From assembly GCA_902795045.1 (NCBI GenBank), contig CADBJU010000008.1, forward strand, positions 1 through 47,110: a DNA stretch of 47,110 nt, written 5' to 3'. A program made the position numbers and the translations under genes. A model generated the notes under the pieces. The model was given only the letters and a program-made list of their open reading frames with translations, did not search any database and was not told where the DNA came from. Every line of letters begins with the position of its first letter. Position 1 is the stretch's first letter. This DNA comes from Oscillospiraceae bacterium (GTDB taxonomy: Bacteria; Bacillota; Clostridia; Oscillospirales; Oscillospiraceae). Shown piece by piece: positions 1,022 through 47,110 of this stretch.

Positions 1022-2671
1022 TTATTTGCCCATCTTGTAGCGCAGACTGCTGCGCAGGGACTCGCTCGTGATGCGGATGGTATTGAGCACCGACGCGATG
1101 GCGGCGGCAAAGTCGATAACCACCGCAAGCCAGAGATTGCAGTACCCAATGATGCTGAGGAAAATCAGGAACGCCTTGATGATGAAGACGAACAGCGCGT
1201 TTTCCACACAGATCTCCCGCATGCGTGCGGAGATGCCCTTGGCCATCGGCAGATTGCCGACCGCGTCGGGGTGGGAGATCGCGTCGGCATACTTGGCGCG
1301 GCTGTTGACGCGGATGTCGATGGCCGCGTCGCTGTGCGCCTCGATGCCGTTTGCGTAGACAAAGAGCACCGCGCCTTTGGTCTTGCGGGCAATGTCGCTG
1401 ATGATGCGCAGCTTCTTCTCCGTGTCGCACTGGGCGTACATCTCCGAGAAGTTCAGCATTTCGGCAAGCTCCTGGCCGGCCTCCTTACTGTCGTCGCTGA
1501 GCAGGACGCAGCGGGACACTTGGACCTTTTTCAGATCAGGCACCAGTCCCTCAAGATCCTGGTTCACATCGGAGGAGATGACCACCTTGCCCATCGTCCT
1601 TCCGGCCACGACCATGTAATAGGCGGTGCCGGTCTCCGTGGGGGGATCGTCGACCTGGATGCCGCGCTCTTCCAGCAGCGGTCTTGTGGCAAAGGTGACG
1701 TCGATGCCGTCGATGGAAAGCTCCATCCCGTAGCCCGGAATCTCACGAAAGTCCTTAATCACGTCCAGCTTGTAGTCGTGGTCATAGACGGCGGAAATGG
1801 CTTTGGCGACGGGCTGCTCGGAGTAGTACACGGCGTGGGCCACGAAGTTGAGGAAGGTGTCGTAATCCAGCACGTCGGAGTGCATGGCGATGATGCGGGG
1901 GCATTCCTCGGCGAAGATGCCGTTTTTATCAAACACCGCAGCGGACACATCGGCCATGGCCTCAAGAGGGGCGGCGCTGCCGAACACGATGCCGTGCCTT
2001 GCGCTCTGGCACAAGCCAACGGCCGCGGCCAGCGGGAAGGACACCACGACGGAAGCGGGCGTCGCCGCAAGCATCATGACAAGCGCGCGGTGGATGGAGA
2101 TTGAAAAGCTCATGCTGGTGACGACAGGCATGGCGATCGCGTAGATCACGGCCAGCAGCATCGCGATTTTCAGGATCAGCCCTGCGCTGCTGCTCATCAC
2201 CTGCTGAATGGACATGGCAGTCTTCTCGTCGTCGTTGATGAGCTCACGCATATGTGCGATAACCCCTGCGTCCTGATCCTGGACAAGATCCAGCGCTGCC
2301 TTCCGGGTATGTTCCCGTGCGTATTTGAGCAGCAGCATGCCGATCTGATACAGCAGGACGAGTGCAGCGCCTTCAACGCCGAAACCGACGAAGAAGGCCA
2401 GCACCGCCGTTATGCCCACGATCAGGGGCGTTGCCGTATAGTCGCCGCTCTCGACCGCCTCGACTGCATTCATGAGGATGTCATATCCGGCGAGCACCGA
2501 GGCCAGCACCAGAAGCAGGATATGAGCGAAGTCCGGCATGTCGATGATCAGTGACAGGGCGAAGATCACGCAGGCGATGACGAGTCTGATAACCAGAGAA
2601 TTGTTCAGTGTGGCGGAAAGCTTTGCCGTATCTATCTTTGGCGGCGTCTGTTTTACATGTTTCTGGGGCAT
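1022..2671 (-). CDS. Degenerate P1B-like P-type ATPase (probable pseudoenzyme)
   Basis: The protein has 549 aa and the overall plan of a heavy-metal P-type ATPase: paired membrane helices, a core helix pair, a P/N-domain block, and a final helix pair. The N-domain still has SEQPVAKAI, close to the usual SEHPLAKAI, and the GxG turn. Key catalytic signatures are changed. The phosphorylation loop reads DKNGI (Asp248) instead of DKTGT. The membrane CPC/CPx motif reads TPA (204-206). The hinge GDGxND has become YANGIEAHSD. The actuator domain with its TGE motif is almost entirely missing between about residues 118 and 160. Family knowledge says these residues drive the transport cycle, so ion pumping is doubtful; a sensor or scaffold role is only a guess. 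A GGGAGG site precedes the ATG. It begins 29 bases after the aldolase gene and is likely co-transcribed with it. Confidence 0.75.
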   Translation of the reverse strand: MPQKHVKQTPPKIDTAKLSATLNNSLVIRLVIACVIFALSLIIDMPDFAHILLLVLASVLAGYDILMNAVEAVESGDYTATPLIVGITAVLAFFVGFGVEGAALVLLYQIGMLLLKYAREHTRKAALDLVQDQDAGVIAHMRELINDDEKTAMSIQQVMSSSAGLILKIAMLLAVIYAIAMPVVTSMSFSISIHRALVMMLAATPASVVVSFPLAAAVGLCQSARHGIVFGSAAPLEAMADVSAAVFDKNGIFAEECPRIIAMHSDVLDYDTFLNFVAHAVYYSEQPVAKAISAVYDHDYKLDVIKDFREIPGYGMELSIDGIDVTFATRPLLEERGIQVDDPPTETGTAYYMVVAGRTMGKVVISSDVNQDLEGLVPDLKKVQVSRCVLLSDDSKEAGQELAEMLNFSEMYAQCDTEKKLRIISDIARKTKGAVLFVYANGIEAHSDAAIDIRVNSRAKYADAISHPDAVGNLPMAKGISARMREICVENALFVFIIKAFLIFLSIIGYCNLWLAVVIDFAAAIASVLNTIRITSESLRSSLRYKMGK

Positions 2672-2700
2672 TCTGCCACCTCCCTGATGATCTCAGATGA

Positions 2701-3669
2701 TCAGGCCTTGCCGTCGGAGCCCAGAACGTGGACGATCTTGTGGGCGACCATATCCTTCACTGCCTGACGCGCGGGCTTGAGGTACTGGCGGGGATCGAAG
2801 TGATCGGGATGCTCGGCAAAGTACTTGCGGATGTTGCCGGTCATGGCCAGACGGATATCGGAGTCGATGTTGATCTTGCAGACTGCCAGTTTTGCGGCCT
2901 CGCGCAGCTGATCCTCGGGGATGCCGATGGCGTCGGGCATGTTGCCGCCGTACTGGTTGACCATCTTGACAAACTCCTGGGGAACGGAGGAGGAGCCGTG
3001 CAGAACGATGGGGAAGCCGGGCAGGCGCTTGATGCACTCATGCAGCACGTCGAAGCGGAGGGGAGGCGGGACCAGGACGCCGTCGGCATTGCGGGTGCAC
3101 TGGGAAGCCTTGAACTTGTATGCGCCGTGGGAGGTGCCGATGGCGATAGCCAGGGAGTCGCAGCCGGTGCGGGAGACGAACTCCTCAACCTCTTCGGGGC
3201 GGGTGTAGCTCTCGTGGCCGTGCTCGACGGAGACCTCATCCTCAACGCCGGCGAGGGTGCCGAGCTCGGCCTCGACCACGACACCGTGATCGTGAGCGTA
3301 CTCGACGACCTGGCGGGTCAGGGCGATGTTCTCGTCAAAGGGCTTGGAGGAGGCGTCGATCATGACGGAGGTGAAGCCGCCGTCGATGCAGGACTTGCAC
3401 AGCTCGAAGGTGTCGCCGTGGTCCAGATGCAGGGCGATGGGGATCTCGGGATTCTCGATGATGGCAGCCTCGACCAGCTTCACGAGGTAGGTGTGGTTCG
3501 CGTAGGCACGGGCGCCCTTGGACACCTGGAGGATGACGGGGCTCTTGAGTTCGCCGGCAGCTTCGGTGATGCCCTGGACGATTTCCATGTTGTTGACGTT
3601 GAAGGCGCCGACGGCATAACCGCCGTTGTAGGCTTTCGCAAACATTTCCTTGGTTGTTACGAGAGGCAT
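2701..3669 (-). CDS. fba: Class II fructose-1,6-bisphosphate aldolase
   Basis: The protein has 322 aa and cleaves fructose-1,6-bisphosphate to dihydroxyacetone phosphate and glyceraldehyde-3-phosphate in the cytoplasm, using zinc. Visible signatures are the HLDHGD segment with the catalytic Asp and a zinc His, the GTSHGAYKF segment, the LHGSS phosphate-binding loop and the later NIDSD motif. An in-frame upstream Met at 3717 exists, but the ATG at 3669 is preceded by AAGGAGA at the right distance and starts the usual MPLVTTKEMF sequence. It is divergent from the PPi-type phosphofructokinase, pairing two neighbouring steps of glycolysis, and is followed by the degenerate P-type ATPase. Confidence 0.95.
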   Translation of the reverse strand: MPLVTTKEMFAKAYNGGYAVGAFNVNNMEIVQGITEAAGELKSPVILQVSKGARAYANHTYLVKLVEAAIIENPEIPIALHLDHGDTFELCKSCIDGGFTSVMIDASSKPFDENIALTRQVVEYAHDHGVVVEAELGTLAGVEDEVSVEHGHESYTRPEEVEEFVSRTGCDSLAIAIGTSHGAYKFKASQCTRNADGVLVPPPLRFDVLHECIKRLPGFPIVLHGSSSVPQEFVKMVNQYGGNMPDAIGIPEDQLREAAKLAVCKINIDSDIRLAMTGNIRKYFAEHPDHFDPRQYLKPARQAVKDMVAHKIVHVLGSDGKA

Positions 3670-7675: not shown

Positions 7676-8389
7676 TTATGCAAATATTTGTTCCAACAGG
7701 CTTTGAAATTCGTTTAGCTTGCCGATTTCATAGTCCGGTTGAATATTGCTCCGGTTCTCCTTCCCCGTCGGATTGAACCAGCAGGTCATGATCCCGGCAT
7801 TGATCCCGCCCCGGATGTCGGAGCTGAGGCTGTCGCCGAGGATGATTGCCCTTTCCCGTGCAAAATTCGGGATCTCCCGAAAGCACTGGTCAAAGAAGCG
7901 CGCGTCCGGCTTGTTGGCCTCCATGTGCTCGGAAATGAAGATCTTTTCAAAATACGGCGCAATACCCGCGCTGGCAATGCGTCCGTCCTGGACTCTCTGG
8001 ACGCCGTTGGAGGCGATGAAGAGACGGTATTCTCCGTGCAGCGCCTCCAGCAGCTTCTCGGCCCCGGGCATGAACCAGTGCCCCTCGGCAAGGAAGCTCT
8101 CATACAGGGCCTGGGTCCGCTCGGCGTCACCCTCCACACCGAGCTCGCGGTACAGTGTTTCGTAGCGCTGCACCAGCACCTGCGCTCGGGTGAGGATGCC
8201 GTCCTCCAGCATCTCCCAATGTCGTATGTTGATTTGGTGATAACGGGCGGCAATGTCGTCGTCCATCTCAAGGCCGAGCTCCGCGAAGGCGCGGCCGAGG
8301 GCGACGCGCTCGGCATGATTGAAGTCCAGGATCGTGTTGTCGAGATCCAGCAGCACGATCGGCCGACTGTCCATAACGTCGTCCCTCAT
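7676..8389 (-). CDS. YjjG-type HAD family hydrolase (noncanonical pyrimidine nucleotidase)
   Basis: The protein has 237 aa with all HAD motifs in order: DLDNTILDF (nucleophile Asp and second Asp), IASNG (motif II Ser), the Lys of NKPDARFF, and ILGDSLSSDI (motif IV). An alpha-helical cap lies between motifs I and II, as in subfamily IA. The closest known group removes phosphate from noncanonical pyrimidine nucleotides (YjjG/YfnB); the true substrate could be another small phosphate ester. The ATG at 8389 overlaps the murF stop in an ATGA arrangement, suggesting translational coupling; an alternative ATG lies at 8374. It is the second gene of the murF operon. Confidence 0.8.
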   Translation of the reverse strand: MRDDVMDSRPIVLLDLDNTILDFNHAERVALGRAFAELGLEMDDDIAARYHQINIRHWEMLEDGILTRAQVLVQRYETLYRELGVEGDAERTQALYESFLAEGHWFMPGAEKLLEALHGEYRLFIASNGVQRVQDGRIASAGIAPYFEKIFISEHMEANKPDARFFDQCFREIPNFARERAIILGDSLSSDIRGGINAGIMTCWFNPTGKENRSNIQPDYEIGKLNEFQSLLEQIFA

Positions 8390-9741
8390 ACAGCGTTCAG
8401 CGCCTTGACGGCCTCGGCTACATGCTCCATGTGCATGCCGAGGGACGCCTTGACGAGCACGCGGTCGCCCTTTTTGAGCAGTCCCGGCAGAGCCTCGATC
8501 ATGGCGTCGCGGGAGGCAAACCACCGTCCCCTCTCCCCTGCGCCCTCGGCGATGTTCTGACCCAACTCCCCGCAGGCGGCCACGAGGTCAATGCCCTTTT
8601 CGGCGGCGTATCGGCCGAGCTCCAGGTGCAGCTTCGGGGAGTCCTCCCCCAGCTCCAGCATGTCGGCAAGCAGGCAGACGCGCCGACCGGTGCAGGCGGC
8701 GAGGGAGTCCACCGCACAGCGCATGGACTCGGGGTTTGCGTTGTAGCAGTCGTCTACCAGCGTGACAAAACCGGTGTCGATGACGGCGTTGCGGCGGCCC
8801 ACGGTCCGGTAGGAGGCGATGCCTGCCTCGATCTCCCGATCGCTGAGGCCCAGCACGATGCCGACCGCCGCGCCCTCCAGGGCTGCGTAGACCATCTGCC
8901 TTCCGAAGGCCGGGACATCGGCATGGATCACGCGATCTGCATACCGGATACGGCAGCGGGTGCGGCCCTCGGGCAGAAGCTCGATCTCATCGGCGCGCAC
9001 GTCGCAGTTGTCGCCGGTACCGTAGAGCAGCACACGCTGGGGACAGGTGATTTTGCTGAGCCAGGCGTCGTCGCCGTTGGCAACGACCGTGCCGTCCGGC
9101 GGCAGGAAGGCCAGCATCTCGGTCTTGGCGCGAAAAACGCCCTCGAGGTCATGGAGAAATTCCAGGTGCGCCCGGCCGATCACCGTGAACACCGCCACCG
9201 TGGGCCTTGCCACGGCGGCAAGCCCGGTCATCTCCCCGAAGCCGGAGATGCCCATTTCCACCACGGCGGCCTCGTGCTCGGTCTCGATGCGGGAGACGGT
9301 CATGGGCACGCCGATCTGATTGTTGTGGTTGCCCTCGGTCCTGAGGGTATTATAGCGCTGGGACAGTACCGCGGCGATCATCTCCTTGGCGGTGGTCTTG
9401 CCCACGCTGCCGGTGACGCCTATGACGGGGATGTGCAGGCTCTCGCGGTAGGCGGTGCAGATCGCCTCCAGGGCCTTCTGCACATTGTCCGTCAGCAGGA
9501 CAGGCTCCTCCACCCCTTCGGGCAGGTACTCCGCCAGGGCGCAGACCGCGCCCTTTTCCAGCGCGCTTTCAATATAGCGGTGTCCGTCCGTCTTCTCGCC
9601 GCGGTAGGCCACGAACAGGTCGCCCGGCTCAACGGCGCGGCTGTCGATCACGGCGCGGCTGATGCCAAGGCTTGCATCCTTGCAGTTTTTCAGTGTCCCG
9701 CCGCAGCACTCCGCCGCTTTTTTGAGTGTCATCGTCTTCAA
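8386..9741 (-). CDS. murF: UDP-N-acetylmuramoyl-tripeptide--D-alanyl-D-alanine ligase
   Basis: The protein has about 451 aa and adds D-Ala-D-Ala to the UDP-MurNAc tripeptide in the cytoplasm, the last soluble step of peptidoglycan precursor synthesis. Signatures are the N-terminal substrate domain with VIDSRAVEPGDLFVAYRG, the ATP loop GVTGSVGKTTAKE, the EGNHNNQIGVP motif, VVEMGISGFGEM, and DDCYNANPESM in the C-terminal domain. The start is uncertain. The ATG at 9732 has no close ribosome binding site, while the in-frame TTG at 9741 sits 11 bases from AGGAG and is preferred here. Its 3' end overlaps the HAD gene. Confidence 0.93.
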   Translation of the reverse strand: MKTMTLKKAAECCGGTLKNCKDASLGISRAVIDSRAVEPGDLFVAYRGEKTDGHRYIESALEKGAVCALAEYLPEGVEEPVLLTDNVQKALEAICTAYRESLHIPVIGVTGSVGKTTAKEMIAAVLSQRYNTLRTEGNHNNQIGVPMTVSRIETEHEAAVVEMGISGFGEMTGLAAVARPTVAVFTVIGRAHLEFLHDLEGVFRAKTEMLAFLPPDGTVVANGDDAWLSKITCPQRVLLYGTGDNCDVRADEIELLPEGRTRCRIRYADRVIHADVPAFGRQMVYAALEGAAVGIVLGLSDREIEAGIASYRTVGRRNAVIDTGFVTLVDDCYNANPESMRCAVDSLAACTGRRVCLLADMLELGEDSPKLHLELGRYAAEKGIDLVAACGELGQNIAEGAGERGRWFASRDAMIEALPGLLKKGDRVLVKASLGMHMEHVAEAVKALNAV

Positions 9742-9769
9742 GATCCGCTCATCTCCTCTCAATTTATAC

Positions 9770-9798
9770 AGTATAGCATAGTCGTCCCGGCATGGCAA
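9770..9798 (-). promoter_or_regulatory. Sigma-A promoter of murF
   Basis: On the minus strand TTGCCA (9793-9798) and TATACT (9770-9775) are separated by 17 bases. Confidence 0.8.
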
Positions 9799-9840
9799 AA
9801 GAATTTGTTTTAAAAAAGTAGTGCACAGCGGACAAAGATA

Positions 9841-9849
9841 TGTTATAAT
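9841..9849 (+). promoter_or_regulatory. Extended -10 promoter of the exonuclease gene
   Basis: TGTTATAAT gives a consensus -10 box (9844-9849) with an upstream TGn element; no good -35 box is seen at the right distance, which is normal for extended -10 promoters. Confidence 0.6.
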
Positions 9850-9893
9850 AATTGAGCTTGTTTAAAAACTATTACAGTCAAAGGATAATTGCT

Positions 9894-10883
9894 ATGAATT
9901 ACGTGGTGGTGGATCTGGAATGGAATCAGGCGATGAGTTCCAAATCCTCCGTATTTAATAAGCTGCCGATCCATCTCGGCGGCGAGATCATTGAAATCGG
10001 CGCGGTCAAGCTCACCGAGGACATGAAGCCCGGCGAGGAATTTACCATTGACGTAAAGCCTGTGTATTTCCGCCGCATGCACTACAAGGTCAAAAAAATC
10101 ACCGGCTTTGACAAAGAGCGCCTGAGCCACGGCCACTCCTTCCCCGACGCGATGGAGCAGTTTCGCGCCTGGTGCGGGGACGATGTGACCTTTATCACCT
10201 GGGGCTGCGACGATCAGCGCATCATGGAGCAGAACATCATCATCCATGATCTGGACTGGGACTGGATCGCGGGCTGGATCAACCTCCAGCTCATCTACAA
10301 TCTGCAGACGGGCGGGGACAAGAACCAGAAGTCCCTCGCCAGCGCCATGGAGCATTTTGAGATCGAACAGACCAGAGTCGCCCACGACGCCCTGGGCGAC
10401 GCGTACAATACCGCTGTCGTCGCCTCCCGCCTCGACATGGCGGAGGGTCTTCGCATGTATGACGAGGCTGCCCACATCCTCGCCATGCGCATGCCGAACT
10501 ACAAGCCCCCCATGGAAAACGACGGGCCTGACACCATCAGCCACGACGTGTTCGACGGCTTCAAAACCAAGGCCGAGGCCTTCGCCGACGAACGACTTTC
10601 CGCGCTCCCCTGTCCCGTCTGCGGTCAGGAGACGAATGCGCTCAAGTGGATCAATCAGGGCGATCAGCGCTATATGAACATCTACTCCTGCGCCGAGCAC
10701 GGCAGCTTTCTCGTGCGCGCCAAGTTCCGCAAGAGCAAGGAGGACAGCTCCTGGCTTGCAAACCGCCTGGTCTACGAGGCGGACGAGGACATGGTCAGCT
10801 TCTACAAGACCAAGGCCTCCCAGTCACGCCGCCGCAGCCGCGGCCACAGCAATCGAAAACGCTCCGGCAGCAAACAGTCCTGA
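9894..10883 (+). CDS. DEDDh-family 3'-5' exonuclease with C-terminal zinc ribbon
   Basis: The protein has 329 aa. The N-terminal exonuclease domain starts with VVVDLEWN (the paired acidic residues of ExoI), contains the ITGFDKERL segment and ends with HDALGDAYNTA, which supplies the catalytic His and last Asp of the DEDDh set. Such domains remove nucleotides from 3' ends of RNA or DNA; the KapD/ERI-1-like look suggests small RNA or tRNA processing but this is unproven. Residues after about 240 hold a CPVCGQ...C..H zinc-ribbon-like element followed by a strongly basic, Ser/Arg-rich tail, which looks like a nucleic-acid binding appendage. AAAGGAT before the ATG at 9894 sets the start; an upstream in-frame ATG at 9852 is less likely. 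It is divergent from murF. Confidence 0.82.
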   Translation: MNYVVVDLEWNQAMSSKSSVFNKLPIHLGGEIIEIGAVKLTEDMKPGEEFTIDVKPVYFRRMHYKVKKITGFDKERLSHGHSFPDAMEQFRAWCGDDVTFITWGCDDQRIMEQNIIIHDLDWDWIAGWINLQLIYNLQTGGDKNQKSLASAMEHFEIEQTRVAHDALGDAYNTAVVASRLDMAEGLRMYDEAAHILAMRMPNYKPPMENDGPDTISHDVFDGFKTKAEAFADERLSALPCPVCGQETNALKWINQGDQRYMNIYSCAEHGSFLVRAKFRKSKEDSSWLANRLVYEADEDMVSFYKTKASQSRRRSRGHSNRKRSGSKQS

Positions 10884-38269: not shown

Positions 38270-38345
<76 letters not shown>

Positions 38346-38398: not shown

Positions 38399-38686
38399 TT
38401 TTTACGATGTTTTTGTTTCTGTCGTGTTGCGCTCTTATTTACTATGATTCCACGGCGTGTGGAATTCGTGTGGAATTGAGAAAACCGACAGCGCCGAAAG
38501 CCAGTCAGCGCGCGCTGTTTGACATGTCCCCCTGCGTTTTCGCAAATGCCAAAATAGAAAAACGCTGTTCTTTCGCAAAAGCCACAAAAGCAGAAAACTG
38601 TGTTTTTTGCTTTGCGAGAATGGAAAGATTCCGGGAAACCGCAAATCCGAGTGTTGGCAGAAAGCTGTTTTTTTGCGTGCGTACGC

Positions 38687-38821
38687 TTTCGTGTTCTTCC
38701 GGAAGATCAGGAGATGATTATTGCACATGCAAAAGCGATGGGCGACAAAAGTACCTCAGCCTTCTTAATCAGAGCCGTGAAAGAGACGATTGAGCGGGAT
38801 CTTTCAAAGCGGGATAGTTGA
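38687..38821 (+). pseudogene. Remnant of an RHH (Arc/CopG-type) DNA-binding protein
   Basis: The frame from about 38687 reads FRVLPEDQEMIIAHAK, then TSAFLIRAVKETIERDL, which has the strand-helix-helix pattern of ribbon-helix-helix proteins (compare FRVTPEEHE..AFILRAI.ETMERD). The open frame upstream (from 38600) does not look like protein of this family and there is no ribosome binding site, so the gene seems truncated at its 5' end. A terminator follows at 38864. It lies just past a tRNA, where mobile elements commonly insert. The stretch 38400-38680 holds no other gene I can support. Confidence 0.5.
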
Positions 38822-38863
38822 AAGCGTCTGGTGAGTTCGTTTCCGCTCATTTCGGCCACGTCA

Positions 38864-38908
38864 GAAACGCCGATTGATACAATGTGTCAATTCGGTGTTT
38901 CGTTTTTT
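38864..38908 (+). terminator. Terminator after the RHH remnant
   Basis: A long stem (GAAACGCCGA..TTGATAC with GTGTCAA..TTCGGTGTTTC) is followed by six T. Confidence 0.8.
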
Positions 38909-39223
38909 ATGCCCTGAAAGCCTTGCGGCGCAACGCCTCCAGTTTCTTGCCATTGCAGTATGTTTTATAGATTGAAAAAGAGAGGGTTTGAATCCCCTCT
39001 AAGGGCGGAAAGAAGATAACGTTAGCAGGGGCAAATAGTTTGGTTATAGGGGTTTCGTTTGGTAGTTAAAATTATTGAAGTTTTATCCTTTCGTGTTATT
39101 AAAGTAATCTTCCATTATGTTAAAAACAGTTAATTGACAACGTTTACCGCGAGGCGATTTTTTTCATGTTCAGGCCACCGAGAATTCCCATGTCAGTGTA
39201 AAACTGCCGGGCGCATAAAACTG
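38909..39223. other. AT-rich gene-free stretch
   Basis: No ORF with a plausible start was found. It is clearly more AT-rich than the core chromosome and leads into the promoter of the STAS gene. A TTGAC motif at 39134 and scattered -10-like hexamers are not at useful spacings. Confidence 0.4.
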
Positions 39224-39252
39224 TTGCAATTTTCATGTGAATTGTATATAAT
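39224..39252 (+). promoter_or_regulatory. Sigma-A promoter of the STAS-GT2/GH3 unit
   Basis: TTGCAA (39224-39229) and TATAAT (39247-39252) are separated by 17 bases, about 65 bases before the STAS start codon. Confidence 0.75.
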
Positions 39253-39318
39253 CCACGGCACCACGGCACGAACAGAATCTCAGATTAACTGATGACATCA
39301 CTTTAGGAGGCGACAAAT

Positions 39319-39619
39319 ATGCTGATGAATTTCAAAAGCCAGGGAAAACACTGCCCTGACCGTCACGCTTGAGGGACGACTGGACACCACCACCGCGCCG
39401 CTGCTGGAGGCGGAGATAAAGGACACATCGCCTGGCGTAGGAGCGCTGACCATTGATATTCACAGGCTGGAATATATCTCCTCCGCGGGACTGAGCGTGC
39501 TGCTCAGCGCGCAGAAGGTCATGTACAAGCAGGGCGAAATGAAGATTACGGGCGTCAATGATGCCATTATGGAGATCTTAGAGGTGACCGGCTTCAGCGA
39601 TATTCTGAATATTGTCTGA
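39319..39619 (+). pseudogene. STAS-domain (anti-sigma factor antagonist-like) gene with a one-base frameshift
   Basis: TTTAGGAGG precedes the ATG at 39319, but this frame stops after 17 codons. Skipping one base in the AAAA run at 39334-39337 joins it to an open frame running to 39619. That frame reads ALTVTLEGRLDTTTAPLLEA, then DIHRLEYISSAGLSVLLSAQ and GFSDILNIV, a complete STAS domain of about 100 aa with the SSAGL phosphorylation-site motif. STAS proteins bind anti-sigma/kinase partners in signalling cascades. As written the gene is broken. It could be a real pseudogene, an assembly error, or a +1 frameshift site. It precedes the GT2-GH3 gene by 37 bases. Confidence 0.8.
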
Positions 39620-39656
39620 CGGACGGCCATTTTTCACACAAGAAAGGAAGAAAAGT

Positions 39657-42239
39657 ATGTCAAACACCAAGTATCCGGTTTCTGTCGCCACGCCCTTCCA
39701 CAACACGAACCTGAAATTCTTTGCCAAATGCATGGAGTCTCTCAAAGGGCAGACCATCGGTTTTGAAAACATACAGTGGGTCATCACGGTACACAACTCC
39801 GAAAAGCAGTATCTGGACGCCGTAAAGGAGATGGCGGCCCCCTACCCCAATATGGAGGTCTACGAGCTCTATAACGAGTTCCGGACGGCATCCACACCGA
39901 GAAACGAGTGCATGAAGCATATCAAGAGCGATTACGTCTTTTTCCTGGATTCTGACGATTTTCTCTATCCGGAGGCGCTGGAGAAGCTTCATACGGCGAT
40001 GGAGGAGAACGGCGCAGAGGTAGGTTCCTTCCGCGAGGAATCCATCGAGGGAACAACAGGTCTTCAGGGCGTGGAGAATCTTCGTCTCAAGTTCCTGCTG
40101 GATCAGACGAAGCCCCTGATCGTCCTGCACCGGAACGATCCGGAAATGGAGCATTATCTGGACCCGCGCAATCTGACGGTGCATAAGATGTACCGTCTCA
40201 GCCTGCTGACCGATAATAATATCCGCTTCCGTGACAGAACCGCCATGGGCGAGGATGTGGTGTTTAATCTCAACTGTGCAAAGTTCTATAAGACCATTGT
40301 CGTTCTGCCGCAGTATATCGGCTACGGCTATTTCCTGAACGCCGGTTCCCTTGCCCAGACCAATCTGGCGGTGACCCCGGAAAAGCTGAACACCTTCCTG
40401 AGTGACCGCCTGGACTGGATTGAGATGGCAGTGCAGACCGGCCTGAACACGGCAAACATCGGTTGGCTGGGTCTTGCCAGCGCCGCTAAGCTCCTGTCGG
40501 CTCCCGGCCTCCCGGAGCAGTTCCGCCAGAGCTGGAAGGAGCGCTACATCCCCTACGCGCATATGTTCCCGCCCATGAAGCCCTCCAAGTTTTATAATGA
40601 AGCGACAACACAGGGAATCACGGCTCTTGTCCGCAGCTTCTTTGCCAAAGGCGGTGATTCAACAGGAGCGCGCAAAAATATTGATTATCTGTGGCCCGTA
40701 CTGGAGAAAAACATCGGGACGGACGTCGGCAGAAACTGGAATTTCGGCGCGATCCATACCTATGAAGCATACAAGAGCAATGTTCCGCTGACGACGTATG
40801 ATTTTTACGCGCCCCTCGTGGAGCTGACCACCCGCATCGGCGAGGTCAATATCTTCTGCGCTGACCCGCTGACAGGCTACTCCCTGAGCTCCGGCACCAC
40901 CGGGCCGCAGAAGCGCATCCCCTATACTGCCGAGCACCTGATCTCCTACGCCGCCAGTATGCGCGACATCCTTCTGGACGGGGAGCCCACCTTCGCCCTG
41001 CTGGAGAGCCTGCCGAAGGAGATGGAATATGTCGATCACACCCGTCTGGACTCCATCCTCGGCGCGGCGCTGAGCGTCATCCGCAATGAGCTTTCCGAAT
41101 GCTCCTATTCACGCTCTTTCAAGCAGGGCACCGTGACCGGCCCCGAAGAGCTTTTCTTCCCGGCGGAGACGATAGATCCCCGTTATGCGCGGCTGCTGTT
41201 CGCGCTGCTCGACCCGGATGTGTCCCAGATCGTCGCGCCCTTCACTTGGACGGTGCTGGATACCATACAGTACCTGGAGAAAAATTACGGGAGCATCCTG
41301 CACGATATGGAGACGGGCACCATTTCTGTTGATGCCGGTCTGCCCGAAGGAATGCGCAAGGCCATGGAGGACAAGCTGACTGCCTGCCCCGAGCGTGCCG
41401 CTGCGCTGCGTGCCGAATTTGAAAAGGGCTTTGAGAATATCATTCCCCGTATCTGGCCCAATTGCGGCCGCATCGTCGCCGCCGGCACGGGCGCGTTTTC
41501 CATTTACACCCGCAAGCTCCGCTTCTACAGCGGCGCGATCCCCATGAACAACGGCTTCTACGCCGCCTCTGAGGCGGTAATCGGCCGCAGCCTCCGGGAT
41601 GACAGCGACGAATATGTTCTTTTGACCGACAATGCCTTCTTTGAATTTCTCAGGCCCTCCGACAAGGAGCCGGTGGAGGCGGAGGCGCTGCGGGACGGTG
41701 AGGAGTATGAGCTTATCCTCACCAATGCCGCCGGGCTCTACCGCTACCGTCTGGGCGATGTGATCCGCGTCCTGCGGCGCGAGGGCGACGCTGTCATCTT
41801 CAGCTTTGAGTACCGCATGGATAGCCGCCTCCTGATCGGCGATGCCGTGGTGACGGAAAAGATGCTGGAGAAGGCCGTCGAAGCCTTTGAAAAACAGACG
41901 GGCACCGACCTTCGCGACTTCTGCGCCATGGTCGATGAGGACGGCGCCCTGACCGTTCTGGTCGAGCCCTTCGGCGCGGCAAAGACTCTCCCGGCTGCGG
42001 AAGAGAGGAGCAGTCGCATGGAGGAGGCGCTCTTCTCGCTCTGTCCGGCCTACAGGGCGGTGCGCGAGAACGACGGTGTCTCCGCCTGCAGGGTGCGTAT
42101 TCTGGAGCCGGAGACCCACCTTCTTTACCGTGACCGAAGAATGTACCGGGAAAAGATGGCGCCGGATCAGGTCAAGCCGATCCGCATCCTGAACACCCCG
42201 GAAACGCAGAAATTCTTTATGGCCCTTTCTGAGGGCTGA
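39657..42239 (+). CDS. GT2 glycosyltransferase - GH3 acyl-adenylate synthetase fusion
   Basis: The protein has 860 aa. Residues 5-240 are a family 2 glycosyltransferase: SVATPFHNTNLKFF.CMESL, VITVHNSEKQYLDAV and the metal-binding FLDSDDF (DSDD at 98-101). Residues about 345-860 match GH3 acyl-acid amido synthetases (plant auxin-responsive GH3 fold). They carry the ATP/AMP motif SLSSGTTGPQKR (411-420), FYAASEAV (motif II) and NAAGLYRYRLGDVIRV (motif III). The GH3 half should adenylate a carboxylic acid and join it to an amine or thiol. The GT half should use a nucleotide sugar. Together they could make an acylated or amidated glyco-product, but this is inference. AAAGGAAG sits before the ATG. 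It is co-directional with the STAS gene and ends at a strong hairpin. No membrane helix is evident, so it is cytoplasmic. Confidence 0.85.
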   Translation: MSNTKYPVSVATPFHNTNLKFFAKCMESLKGQTIGFENIQWVITVHNSEKQYLDAVKEMAAPYPNMEVYELYNEFRTASTPRNECMKHIKSDYVFFLDSDDFLYPEALEKLHTAMEENGAEVGSFREESIEGTTGLQGVENLRLKFLLDQTKPLIVLHRNDPEMEHYLDPRNLTVHKMYRLSLLTDNNIRFRDRTAMGEDVVFNLNCAKFYKTIVVLPQYIGYGYFLNAGSLAQTNLAVTPEKLNTFLSDRLDWIEMAVQTGLNTANIGWLGLASAAKLLSAPGLPEQFRQSWKERYIPYAHMFPPMKPSKFYNEATTQGITALVRSFFAKGGDSTGARKNIDYLWPVLEKNIGTDVGRNWNFGAIHTYEAYKSNVPLTTYDFYAPLVELTTRIGEVNIFCADPLTGYSLSSGTTGPQKRIPYTAEHLISYAASMRDILLDGEPTFALLESLPKEMEYVDHTRLDSILGAALSVIRNELSECSYSRSFKQGTVTGPEELFFPAETIDPRYARLLFALLDPDVSQIVAPFTWTVLDTIQYLEKNYGSILHDMETGTISVDAGLPEGMRKAMEDKLTACPERAAALRAEFEKGFENIIPRIWPNCGRIVAAGTGAFSIYTRKLRFYSGAIPMNNGFYAASEAVIGRSLRDDSDEYVLLTDNAFFEFLRPSDKEPVEAEALRDGEEYELILTNAAGLYRYRLGDVIRVLRREGDAVIFSFEYRMDSRLLIGDAVVTEKMLEKAVEAFEKQTGTDLRDFCAMVDEDGALTVLVEPFGAAKTLPAAEERSSRMEEALFSLCPAYRAVRENDGVSACRVRILEPETHLLYRDRRMYREKMAPDQVKPIRILNTPETQKFFMALSEG

Positions 42240-42263
42240 TACTAAGCCATTATATGAAAGCAT

Positions 42264-42322
42264 AAAACATGTGGCATCGGGCGATGCTTCGCATCCATAA
42301 TCGTCCGATGCCACATGTTTTA
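42264..42322. terminator. Bidirectional terminator between GT2-GH3 and ubiX-like genes
   Basis: A 16-bp stem (AAACATGTGGCATCGG with CCGATGCCACATGTTT) with a 24-base loop that itself holds a GCGATGC/GCATC mini-hairpin. T-runs or A-runs flank both sides. Confidence 0.85.
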
Positions 42323-42889
42323 TTCAGTTTCTTGCCATGGTCTGAACGAGTTGCTTTCTATTCCAAACTGAAGCAGTACCTTTCCAACCACATGCGCGAT
42401 CTGGTCCTCCATGGTATTCGCTCCGTTATAGAAAGTTAGCACCGGCGGCACTATGCTGCAGCCATACTCTGCCGCCTGAGACATGTTTCTAAGGTGGATC
42501 CTTCCAAGCGGCATCTCCCGAGGCACCAATACCACTTTACGGTTCTCCTTGAGGCATACATCCGCCGCTCTCAGGAGAAGGTTCTCCGCATAGCCGCTCA
42601 CTATTCCAGCCAGGCTTTTCATGCTGCAAGGAATGATTATCATTCCTTCCGTAACATAGGAGCCGCTTGCAATTACGGCCGCGTAGTCCTGCTCTGAATA
42701 CACATGGTCTGCAAGTGCATACAGTTCTTCGATTGGCTCATCGCACTCAAGCCCCCATGTCAGCTTAGCACCTTCAGTAACTATGAGATAGCTCTCACAG
42801 CCAGCCATATTCAGTTCTTTCAGCAGACTAAGGCTCATCCTTACTCCGGACGCCCCGCTTACGCCTACTATGATCCTTTTTTTATTCAT
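42320..42889 (-). CDS. UbiX/Pad1 family flavin prenyltransferase
   Basis: The protein has 189 aa with the family hallmarks VGVSGASGVRMSLSLL (FMN-binding loop), IIIPCSMKSLAGI, and VPREMPLGRIHLRNM. It prenylates reduced FMN with dimethylallyl phosphate, making the cofactor for UbiD-type decarboxylases. GGGGAGA lies upstream of the ATG at 42889; the longer frame to 43102 runs through non-homologous sequence and is rejected. No UbiD decarboxylase gene is present in the window, so it is an orphan here. It lies in an accessory, pseudogene-rich region and is more AT-rich than the core. Confidence 0.88.
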   Translation of the reverse strand: MNKKRIIVGVSGASGVRMSLSLLKELNMAGCESYLIVTEGAKLTWGLECDEPIEELYALADHVYSEQDYAAVIASGSYVTEGMIIIPCSMKSLAGIVSGYAENLLLRAADVCLKENRKVVLVPREMPLGRIHLRNMSQAAEYGCSIVPPVLTFYNGANTMEDQIAHVVGKVLLQFGIESNSFRPWQETE

Positions 42890-44918: not shown

Positions 44919-45500
44919 ATGGAATCAATTATTGCATGCGGAAAGAAATACCGTATCATAAAACTTCTTGGCCGTGGTAAGGGCGGCTATGCCTATCTTG
45001 CGGAAATTGAAGGCAGGCAGGCAGTAGTCAAAATAATCCATCATGAACCGTGCAAATTCTATTCTTTCGGCAATAAAATTGAAGCAGAAAAACGGGATTA
45101 TGAGCGGCTGCGGAAACTGGGAATCAGAGTTGCGGCGTTGATTGATATTGATGAAGATGCAGAAATCGTAGTGAAAGAATATATTGCCGGAAAGACGATC
45201 ATTGAATTGGTGCGGGATGGCGGTTCGACTGATATGTACTTGGATCAGGTACGGGAGATGGCAGCGAGGGCGAAAAAAGCCGGCCTGAATATTGATTACT
45301 TTCCAACCAATTATGTGATCCAGGACGGCCTGATCTGGTATGTAGATTACGAATGTAATGAATATACGGAAGAATGGAACTTTGAAAACTGGGGAATTCG
45401 ATACTGGTCCCGCACGCCTGAGTTCCTGGAACACTTGGAGTATCTGAAACGGCATCCGGAAAGAGCGATCGGCGTGAATGGAATTCAAAGCGAAAGCTGA
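44919..45500 (+). CDS. Small protein-kinase-fold protein (RIO/APH-like)
   Basis: The protein has 193 aa with a minimal kinase fold. LLGRGKGGYAYLAEI is the glycine loop, QAVVKI carries the ATP-anchoring Lys38, and KIEAEKRDYERL the helix C Glu. VVKEYIAGKTI is the hinge, GLNIDYFPTNYVIQDG the catalytic loop with Asp and Asn, and VDYECNEY the metal-binding stretch replacing DFG. It may phosphorylate a small molecule or protein; similar small proteins are sometimes annotated as serine/threonine or lipopolysaccharide core kinases. GGAG lies nine bases before the ATG at 44919. It starts 30 bases after the centred palindrome, which may therefore influence its expression. Confidence 0.75.
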   Translation: MESIIACGKKYRIIKLLGRGKGGYAYLAEIEGRQAVVKIIHHEPCKFYSFGNKIEAEKRDYERLRKLGIRVAALIDIDEDAEIVVKEYIAGKTIIELVRDGGSTDMYLDQVREMAARAKKAGLNIDYFPTNYVIQDGLIWYVDYECNEYTEEWNFENWGIRYWSRTPEFLEHLEYLKRHPERAIGVNGIQSES

Positions 45501-46105: not shown

Positions 46106-47110
46106 TCAGAGGTTCTGCTCGCGCGCGGCAATGATATCCATAAGATATTCGGGGGTAAAGAACTTGTCCATGAATTGGTAGTAGCCAACCAAGGGGAGCA
46201 CGGCCTTGTACTGGTCGATCAGATGGTCCTGTTCGATATGAATGTCATCAGGCCCGGCGATGACCAGAACGTTCTGGTCGCCGGCCGAGTACGCCTTCCA
46301 TTCGATCTGGTCTGTCGACGGATCGCCGCAGCGCGCGAAATTGGCCCACATCTGCTGAACGGCCGTGAAAATCTCATCAGGGACGTTCGTGCCATTGAAT
46401 GGGCTGGCCGTCCCCACGCCGCGAAGGTTGAACTCAAAGATGAGCTCTACGGAATGTGCTGCCCCTAATTCCGCATTACTGCCCGGGTACGACCAGTAAT
46501 AGAAGAACGTTTTGTTGAACGCGCTCTGCACATCGAGCTGCTGAAGCAGAGCAACCCTGAATATGACCTCACTTAAGAACTCCGTCTCGATCAGTCCCGG
46601 CTCCTGAAGCCTGCAGACCCTCTGGAACTCCTCATAAGATTTCTTATCTTCTTCCTTCAGGTAGCGGAGTGCCTCACCCACGCTGTGCTGGGCGTGTATC
46701 TTCTGCTCTTCCAGACTCAGATTCGCGCCCTCGCCCATGAACAGTCTGGACTCATCGGCCGTGCTGCCTGCCATGATGGATATGTGCTTTGCGTAGCCTT
46801 TCTTGTACAGCTCGATGGGTGCCTCGGGGAGAACCTCATTTCCGTAGTAGGGGCTGCTCATGAACTTGTTGACCGCATTGACATACGCCTCATGGAGTTC
46901 CTCTTCGGTCAGAGCCATGATGTCGTCCATGGTCTTGCAGCCGGTGTACTCGAGCAGTGCCTTCGTCCTGCTCTGCGCAGTTTCACAGCCGACCGGCATG
47001 GCCGCGTAGACCGAGCCGCTCTGGGCGATGATCTTCTGGAAATACTGGTTTGCCTCCTTCATGACCGACAGAATGGAGACCGAACCGCCGCCGGCGCTTT
47101 GCCCGAAAAC
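46106..47110 (-). CDS. Type-B carboxylesterase (partial, C-terminal part)
   Basis: The gene enters from the right edge of the window, so its N-terminal part is missing; 334 residues are visible. They begin VFGQSAGGGSVSI, the nucleophile elbow of carboxylesterase/lipase family B (usual GESAGG, here with Gln). AGSTADESRLF gives the acidic residue region, and ELGAAHSVELIFEF supplies the catalytic His. The YYWSYPG and WANFARCGDPS segments are also typical. It hydrolyses carboxylic esters of unknown nature. Whether it has a signal peptide cannot be seen. Confidence 0.9.
   Translation of the reverse strand, partial: VFGQSAGGGSVSILSVMKEANQYFQKIIAQSGSVYAAMPVGCETAQSRTKALLEYTGCKTMDDIMALTEEELHEAYVNAVNKFMSSPYYGNEVLPEAPIELYKKGYAKHISIMAGSTADESRLFMGEGANLSLEEQKIHAQHSVGEALRYLKEEDKKSYEEFQRVCRLQEPGLIETEFLSEVIFRVALLQQLDVQSAFNKTFFYYWSYPGSNAELGAAHSVELIFEFNLRGVGTASPFNGTNVPDEIFTAVQQMWANFARCGDPSTDQIEWKAYSAGDQNVLVIAGPDDIHIEQDHLIDQYKAVLPLVGYYQFMDKFFTPEYLMDIIAAREQNL

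Follow-up and report, generated by a model that had tools for sequence, protein, structure and literature searches.

Does the long open reading frame of this locus encode a genuine enzyme in which a family 2 glycosyltransferase (GT2) is joined to a GH3-type amide synthetase, and if so, what might it make and how might it be controlled? GH3 homologues occur across bacterial phyla with functions yet to be found, and among these little characterised enzymes OlsH of Singulisphaera acidiphila, a GH3-like lyso-ornithine lipid synthetase that joins an acid and an amine with ATP, represents one pathway that has been worked out (PMC12493201). The locus lies in a 47,110-nucleotide stretch from an Oscillospiraceae bacterium, hereafter the window, and was annotated as follows.

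39224..39252, + strand: promoter-like site TTGCAA-N17-TATAAT, 10 of 12 consensus positions
39305..39321, + strand: AGGAGG ribosome-binding-like site and ATG (39319) of the STAS gene, from sequence and translation; this frame stops after 17 codons
39329..39619, + strand: frame coding for the STAS domain, 96 aa and a stop codon (Pfam, TIGR00377), which differs from the frame of the ATG at 39319
39657..42239, + strand: GT2-GH3 fusion protein, 860 aa (ORF translation, Pfam, alignments with fused relatives)
39657..40601, + strand: GT2 glycosyltransferase half, residues ~1-315 (Pfam; DSD at 98-100, ED at 199-200)
40602..40691, + strand: linker, residues ~316-345 (alignment with the fused relative L261, 37% identity)
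40692..42236, + strand: GH3 half, predicted to be adenylate-forming, residues ~346-860 (Pfam; SSGTTGPQKR, YAASEA, GLYRYRLGD, C-terminal DQVKPIR)
42262..42323, + strand: 24-nt inverted repeat, likely a terminator, just 3' of the stop codon (96% complementary, 14-nt loop)

Two complete domains in one reading frame

The preliminary description of this DNA had proposed a single 860-aa protein joining a GT2 to a complete GH3 enzyme, and the Pfam search that it called for bore this out, with two complete domains and their catalytic motifs in one ORF. The GT2 half matched PF00535 at residues 9-138 (E 8e-16, 58.8 bits; cut-off 23.3), and contains a DxD motif (LDSDD) and an acidic pair (GED), which I take to be the GT2 catalytic residues. 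The N, M and C parts of GH3 all scored above their gathering cut-off of 23.6 bits: PF03321 at residues 348-630 (E 2e-51, 175.6 bits), PF23571 at 653-720 (55.8 bits) and PF23572 at 736-848 (39.1 bits). This match to all three parts speaks against a GH3 half that lacks the GH3 fold; AlphaFold2 with single-sequence input returned a pLDDT of 35.7 for the fusion protein. Against the reference motifs SSGTxxGxxK/R, YxSSE and GLYRYRLGD (taken from PMC12493201), all three nucleotide-binding motifs quoted earlier were found, except that motif 2 has A in place of its first S; the half ends in a C-terminal lysine motif.

A small family of fused relatives

Since the fusion came from one genome of 56 contigs, and since the first 1,186 PF03321 searches of genomes (which overlap) yielded no other, a joining of two separate genes by faulty assembly or cloning had to be considered. 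No second fusion was found in searches of the genus, order, class, phylum and own family, nor among plasmids, phages and viral contigs. Exact 8-residue patterns scanned across 84,980 species gave no second fusion either, the sole match being one cyanobacterial GH3, and these scans are insensitive because at least two of the patterns (NECMKHIK and NDPEMEHY) are altered even in a relative of 72% identity. A second fusion surfaced only when the family of genome G605 was searched, which disposed of the idea that the fusion is unique. Bacteroidota, into which most OlsH-like matches fall (PMC12493201), were covered for fusions by the 8-residue scan only.

In total, five further fusion ORFs were found in four genomes, along with one unfused GT2/GH3 gene pair (L272). 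The closest fused relative, L261, comes from another family of the same class, is likewise 860 aa long and aligns with the window's protein over 860 codons without gaps at 72% amino acid identity, while the remaining four (two in L262, and one each in L263 and L264) are distant and come from three genomes. The halves are thus not always separate elsewhere, and fused relatives rule out the assembly artefact, whose probability I put at practically nil. Identity between the window and L261 was 74% in the GT half, 73% in the GH3 half and 37% in the linker, with differences at codon positions 1, 2 and 3 of 20, 16 and 52%; the substitutions between the two genes show that each half has been under purifying selection. 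The GT2-GH3 fusions constitute a small, rare and conserved family, and from this conservation it follows that the amide and sugar steps probably work together, which makes the product something that can be searched for.

Trees placed the fusions together. A first GH3 tree had set the window's GH3 beside a clade of GH3s linked to STAS and PP2C genes (88/88) on a long branch of 1.66, and alternative placements remained acceptable (p-AU 0.075 and 0.123). A second tree, built by a quick method, included L261 and the other newly found loci and left out six outlying rows; in it the window's GH3 shifted to a clade in which all six fusions grouped with L272 and L277, an ORF truncated by a contig end (support 100). 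Membership in the STAS/PP2C-linked clade is therefore not demonstrated. In the GT2 tree, which contains weak and open branches, some within the fusion clade, the fused GTs and the L272 GT2 formed one clade (100/99) with GT2s of the NRPS clusters L066, L067 and L069, apart from the other GT2s included, among them one from an EPS-like cluster and two from the window's own genome.

Proposed function of the fusion enzyme

The reading that I favour, and to which I would give an even chance, is a bifunctional tailoring enzyme that carries out two steps, amide and glycoside formation, on an exported metabolite. The GH3 half would most likely activate a carboxylic acid with ATP to an acyl-AMP and pass it to an amine to form an amide, the GT2 half would transfer a sugar from a nucleotide-sugar to the same molecule, and the fusion would hold both successive steps together. 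Both reactions, their order, their substrates and their action on one molecule are predictions from domain content, and the same applies to the earlier suggestion that the locus could make and regulate an acylated or amidated sugar. The product would most likely be a small, exported, glycosylated acyl-amide or acyl-peptide, as the GT2 subfamily and the other fused members sit amid NRPS-like and exporter genes.

Plant GH3 acyl acid-amido synthetases (GH3-1, JAR1/GH3.11 and GH3.12) belong to the same family and share the three nucleotide-binding motifs (4b2g, E 7e-35; 5ech, E 9e-33), whereas the window's enzyme is fused to a GT2 and has no hormone context. OlsH is likewise a bacterial GH3-like enzyme, but is unfused and 526 aa long; the window's protein reached 32.2 bits against the NCBIfam OlsH model NF052613, far below its cut-off of 620, and the operon has no OlsI-like alpha/beta-hydrolase gene. 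A COesterase-family gene, cut by the contig end, lies 4 kb from the fusion. The OaaC pathway of gut bacteria, an NRPS-like route to fatty acid amides (PMC13142362), also forms acyl amides, and condensation-like and AMP-binding genes occur near the related fusions; near the window's gene, in contrast, no carrier protein or condensation gene was identified, and the amide step would be that of GH3.

The GH3 motifs, including the C-terminal lysine motif, are intact in two of the six fusions, the window and L261. In the other four, motif 1 is missing, motif 2 has lost its SE and GLYRY is no longer followed by RLGD; the motifs of the unfused GH3 of L272 have likewise diverged, while the DxD and acidic pair of the GT2 half are kept in all six. 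GH3 catalysis is consequently not the unifying feature of the family, and the GH3 half might be a non-catalytic scaffold for a working GT2, with adenylation motifs surviving by chance in two members. I regard this as quite unlikely, given the intact motifs in these two proteins and a GH3 half conserved as strongly as the GT half.

Another possibility is that the enzyme adds a sugar and an amide-linked group to a cell-surface polymer such as teichoic acid or an exopolysaccharide. Among GT2s of known structure, the GT half matched 6h1j (E 1e-9) and 5tze (E 1e-8), presumably TarP and TarS, which act on wall teichoic acid and with which it shares the GT2 catalytic domain and DxD; a phage tarP, found in the phage search, was ~26% identical, and an amidase-family gene lies 1.8 kb downstream of the fusion. 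This alternative appears unlikely, though less so than a scaffold role, since the GT half groups with the NRPS-cluster GT2s and away from the EPS-like one, and no wall-polymer genes were recognised by eye in the fusion loci. A scan of viral contigs with the GT2 alignment gave 40 GT2 loci.

Gene neighbourhoods bear on the tailoring role, as most members of the fusion family are surrounded by genes suggestive of small-molecule biosynthesis. The 19.5-kb stretch of L261 encodes an A-T-C NRPS, a COesterase and a MATE exporter (Pfam), L264 has a COesterase, one ABC exporter (Pfam) and an AMP-binding gene at the locus edge (own HMM), and condensation-like proteins and further ABC genes were noted by eye in L262-L264. 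L262 also has a COesterase gene, and extra GT genes occur in the loci of relatives. A, T or C domains were present near the enzyme in L261 and L272, whereas the ORFs scanned around it at 34-47 kb of the window had none. No NRPS, exporter or sugar-nucleotide genes were identified among the scanned ORFs of the window's last 9 kb, only the truncated COesterase gene.

The STAS gene and a possible partner switch

A STAS gene had been described ahead of the fusion. The domain is real (PF01740, E 1.7e-12, 47.5 bits, cut-off 22.6), and it exceeded the cut-off of the anti-sigma-factor antagonist model TIGR00377 (61.1 against 53.45 bits) while staying below that of the SpoIIAA model TIGR02886 (42.5 against 114.75); the ORF, however, is not intact, as the ATG behind the ribosome-binding-like site opens a different frame. 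The interruption near its start may be a mutation or a sequence error. This break, the location of possible partner kinase and phosphatase genes elsewhere in the genome, and the larger loci of related fusions together make the proposed self-contained cassette doubtful, even though a STAS frame does precede the fusion.

Partner-switching systems include SpoIIAA/AB/E, RsbV/W/U and Vibrio SypA/SypE. The corresponding genes, STAS, RsbW-like HATPase_c_2 and SpoIIE-type PP2C, were repeatedly found beside GH3 genes, as were MATE genes; the difference from the known systems is that no sigma factor was noticed alongside by eye, the neighbours being a biosynthetic enzyme and a MATE exporter. Of 47 loci, 6 have STAS immediately beside GH3 or joined to it (a GH3-STAS fusion included), against ~0.15 expected, and the linkage is beyond chance. 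Neither this linkage (to STAS, PP2C, RsbW-like or MATE genes) nor a GT2-GH3 fusion appeared among the papers listed by searches of the open-licence literature.

The STAS gene probably once coupled the enzyme to a partner switch comprising an RsbW-like kinase and a PP2C phosphatase, a control that may be lost in this genome copy because its frame is interrupted. Alternatively, it could be dead, or encode a conventional anti-sigma-factor antagonist, and in either case have no functional tie to the fusion. I consider this only slightly short of an even prospect, considering the broken frame, the lack of a detectable STAS gene in the L261 stretch, MATE/PP2C/HATPase modules that exist without GH3, some with STAS (L202-L205), and STAS genes in 2 of 40 control stretches. 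Against it stand the excess of STAS beside GH3, the STAS or STAS-kinase gene next to the fusions of L263 and L264, and the window's STAS, whose closest counterparts among 12 compared (56-57% identity) adjoin GH3 in L064 and L065. In L069 the order is STAS-kinase, GT2 and AMP-ligase, and in L055 the MATE exporter itself carries a HATPase_c_2 domain.

One could imagine that in this bacterial class a partner switch acts on metabolite factories in place of a sigma factor, with STAS on or beside GH3 or GT2-GH3 and the RsbW-like domain on MATE; phosphate added by the ATPase and removed by a PP2C sensor would dock the enzyme at the exporter or release it. This is a long shot; if true, synthesis and export of the glycosylated amide would be switched jointly by docking. 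With this recurrent linkage, the idea of a partner switch aimed at an enzyme and an exporter can be put to the test.

Flanking DNA

The single promoter described upstream corresponds to the promoter-like site at 39224-39252, yet the match alone is weak, as positions 38400-42600 hold four sites of this quality against 2.6 expected by chance. Of 28 direct-repeat families, the 20 listed included no att-like repeat of the tRNA-Ala end. That the locus lies in accessory DNA is plausible if unproven: GC content is ~0.62 at 35-37 kb but only 0.47 at 38-40 kb, and the fusion gene is the sole gene that the window and the L261 stretch have in common.

The fusion gene and its surroundings

The genome of the window (G000) comprises 2.75 Mb in 56 contigs, of which the window is the entire contig 8 (47,110 bases). 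Housekeeping genes (aldolase, phosphofructokinase, AlaRS and RF3, among ten ORFs scanned) lie in its first 38 kb. GC content is 0.47 at 38-40 kb, after the tRNA-Ala gene, versus 0.62 at 35-37 kb, and a promoter-like site, a STAS-coding stretch, the GT2-GH3 gene and an inverted repeat follow in this order.

Features of the window (positions in the window)
38270-38345: tRNA-Ala
39224-39252: promoter-like site
39329-39616: STAS frame
39657-42239: GT2-GH3 fusion gene
42262-42323: inverted repeat, 3' of the fusion gene
46106-47110: COesterase gene, at the cut contig end

The other genes near the fusion were assigned by Pfam and other family profiles as UbiX-like, amidase and small kinase-like. A 193-aa kinase-like protein is encoded at 44919-45500; its Bud32/PrkT-type matches were weak and below cut-offs, and it had no Pfam match.

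The fusion protein has 860 aa and scores above the Pfam cut-offs for GT2 and for each of the three GH3 parts. Residues 7-233 have GT2 enzymes as PDB relatives (8bz4, 6h1j, 5tze and others), and residues 345-820 plant GH3 enzymes (best 4b2g, E 7e-35). Since GT2 relatives from the same genus align as far as about residue 308 and alignments of GH3 relatives start at residues 318-343, the protein consists of two complete units with a short linker between them.

The STAS domain was matched by Pfam STAS (E 1.7e-12) and by TIGR00377 above its cut-off. It keeps the SSAGL stretch, whose serine is the phosphorylation site in STAS proteins of this kind. Its identity is 56-57% to the GH3-adjoining STAS proteins of loci L064 and L065 and no more than 45% to any of the ten others in the comparison. 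The ATG at 39319, with AGGAGG 8 bases upstream, starts a frame that stops after 17 codons; the STAS frame, itself open, is in another phase. Regulation by the STAS protein is the least secure part of the scheme for the window.

Distribution and relationships of the fusion

Genomes with GH3 genes (PF03321, E <= 0.001; the genome sets overlap)
Window's genus: 5 of 102
Order: 13 of 394
Class: 27 of 391 (25 over cut-off)
Phylum: 29 of 299 (20 over cut-off)
Family of genome G605: 39 of 299 (37 over cut-off)

Gene content suggests Clostridia as the class. Judged by open-frame length, and with ORFs cut by contig ends (e.g. in G846 and G1092) outside this judgement, the genus, order, class and phylum searches yielded no fusion-type ORF besides the window's own. 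In a sample of 250 genomes of the window's family, the fusion was found in the window's genome only, while six others carry GH3 alone at 28-34% identity (E <= 1e-10). In the G605 family, four genomes (G1287, G1206, G1337 and G1340) yielded five open frames (852-899 aa, two of them in G1206), each of which encodes GT2 and then GH3 according to reading and Pfam. Among the open-licence papers listed by literature searches, none concerned a GT2-GH3 fusion or GH3 with partner-switch genes, as judged by title or abstract start. Genome G024 has an NRPS-GH3 ORF (1444-aa open frame) as well as a GH3-STAS ORF (688).

The closest relative, in locus L261 of G1287, also has 860 aa and aligns to the window's protein free of gaps at 72% identity (74% in the GT half, 37% in the linker and 73% in the GH3 half). 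The two genes differ at 20, 16 and 52% of first, second and third codon positions, with a Nei-Gojobori dN of 0.20 and a saturated or nearly saturated dS of 1.9 (GT half, 4.6). In a blastn comparison with the 19.5-kb L261 stretch, the fusion gene alone matched (39643-42244 versus 7918-10521), which suggests that it moves independently.

The other four fusions are 27-31% identical to the window's. A GH3 tree of 69 rows, made by a quick method and without six outlying rows and two pieces of L091, joined all six fusions in a single group (support 100). This group includes L272, whose GT2 and GH3 genes are separate neighbours behind a MATE gene, and L277, which is truncated at its 5' end. In a GT2 tree with 31 rows, a single clade (100/99) contains the fused GTs, the GT2 of L272 and the GT2s of the NRPS clusters L066, L067 and L069; background GT2s and the remaining GT2s of L262-L264 fall outside it. 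The fused GT halves may have one origin, the branching order inside this clade being unsure. In L067 and L069, both from the window's genus, an FkbM-type methyltransferase gene (assigned by Pfam in L069 and by eye in L067) is followed by STAS-kinase, GT2 and AMP-ligase genes. L069 also has RmlD and, by eye, an RmlC-like gene, hinting at a rhamnosylated product. In the NRPS-like locus L066, a 404-aa protein (1919-3133) ends in a STAS domain and, by eye, begins like a methyltransferase.

Active sites and proposed activity

The DxD and ED motifs of GT2 are kept in all six fusions. Intact GH3 motifs occur in the window and L261 only; the other four have lost motif 1, SE of motif 2 and RLGD of motif 3, and keep GLYRY.

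Fusions with lost GH3 motifs and kept GT2 motifs
L262: 9868-12423
L262: 14445-17006
L263: 8544-11144
L264: 8068-10653

The fusions thus fall into one canonical group (window and L261) and one whose GH3 domain is altered or dead; the motifs of the unfused L272 GH3 have diverged too. This loss weakens adenylation as a putative family-wide function and leaves the candidate capability of the window's protein unaffected.

GH3 family chemistry forms acyl-AMP from an acid and ATP and then an amide with an amine (PMC12493201). The GH3 half would accordingly adenylate an acid and transfer the acyl group to an amine, and the GT2 half would form a glycoside from a nucleotide-sugar. Being fused and conserved together, the halves most likely work in succession on one metabolite, and the gene content of the relatives' loci suggests an exported NRPS-like or acyl-amide product. 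L261 has an AMP-binding-like gene, a GT8, a MATE with an HATPase_c_2 domain and an A-T-C NRPS gene. L262, with two fusions in one locus, has three GT2s, a condensation-like protein, a COesterase and two ABC-type exporter genes (by eye). In L263 a STAS gene lies directly 3' of the fusion, with a condensation-like protein, an acyltransferase, two ABC-type genes (by eye) and GT2s nearby; in L264 a STAS-kinase gene takes this place, with condensation-like proteins, a COesterase, two ABC-type genes (one by Pfam), GT2s and an AMP-binding-like gene. "Condensation-like" denotes an HGxxD motif and length only, and the three such proteins scanned had no Pfam matches. COesterase-family genes lie within 5 kb of fusions in four of five loci (L261:15287-16888, 5 kb downstream; L262:6978-8477; L264:12972-14474; and the window) and are possible counterparts of the alpha/beta-hydrolase acyltransferase OlsI. 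A STAS or HATPase_c_2 element is present in four of the five (window, L261, L263 and L264) and was not detected in the L262 stretch.

GH3 and partner-switch genes

I compared 47 GH3 loci (matches with E < 1e-11 from the genus, order, class and phylum searches, minus two G725 fragments) with 40 control stretches, drawn from those genomes or near ones.

Genes in 47 GH3 loci versus 40 controls
STAS: 6 versus 2
PP2C: 6 versus 0
HATPase: 5 versus 0
Kinase: 4 versus 0
AMP-ligase/NRPS: 8 versus 1
MATE: 8 versus 1 (7 without L065, an HATPase-domain cross-hit)
GT2 (with the seeds used): 0 versus 0
PP2C or HATPase: 7 versus 0 (Fisher one-sided p 0.011)
Any of STAS, PP2C and HATPase: 9 versus 2 (p 0.046)

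STAS, PP2C and HATPase genes were not seen in 38 of the 47. STAS genes are scarce (36 matches in 10 genomes), yet six GH3 genes have an adjoining or fused STAS where about 0.15 are expected if 2300 genes per genome are assumed (Poisson 1e-8, or 2e-5 with sister genera counted once), so this adjacency or fusion is far beyond chance.

Arrangements of GH3 with such genes
L064, L065: STAS-GH3-PP2C/HATPase
L094: STAS-GH3-MATE-PP2C-HATPase
L063: MATE-GH3-PP2C-HATPase
L076:7365-11072, L077:7674-11382: STAS-GH3-GH3, the tandem GH3 pair directly behind STAS
L055:349-2391 (window's genus): GH3 with C-terminal STAS fusion, beside MATE-HATPase, STAS, STAS-kinase and HATPase genes

In a second set of 18 loci, not a fair sample because it was picked for GH3 ORFs that are long, divergent or from the window's own family, STAS/PP2C/HATPase-type genes stood beside or in line with GH3 in eight (L263, L264, L265, L269, L270, L271, L273 and L276); in L266 and L278, outside this count, they lie some kilobases off. 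Modules of this kind without GH3, which count against a special tie of GH3 to partner-switch genes, were present among the stretches read in L202-L205, of which L203 and L204 also lack STAS.

MATE-HATPase exporters and possible partners

Several MATE proteins carry a C-terminal RsbW-like HATPase_c_2 domain, and their genes often adjoin PP2C, HATPase and STAS genes; such a MATE is possibly a phosphorylation-switched exporter.

MATE genes with RsbW-like HATPase_c_2
L055:2420-4198: Pfam, E 4e-12
L261:2580-4355: Pfam, E 4e-8
L197:1547-3298 (G000 contig 22): Pfam
L202:6477-8246: custom HMM
L203:9624-11417: custom HMM
L204:8599-10341: custom HMM
L205:8178-9953: custom HMM

The C-terminal extension also aligns in the MATEs of L062, L063, L085 and L094, where HATPase_c_2 had no Pfam match. 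Contig 2 of the window's genome (L199:8169-15140) has consecutive NRPS-like (AMP-binding), MATE, STAS, HATPase and PP2C genes, and two further PP2C genes were read on contigs 22 and 3. With the contig 22 MATE, these are possible partners elsewhere in the genome for the window's STAS protein, if it is made at all. In another genome of the genus, GH3 lies at the end of a fusion of AMP-binding (custom HMM) and condensation-like (by eye) parts (L056:1-4314).
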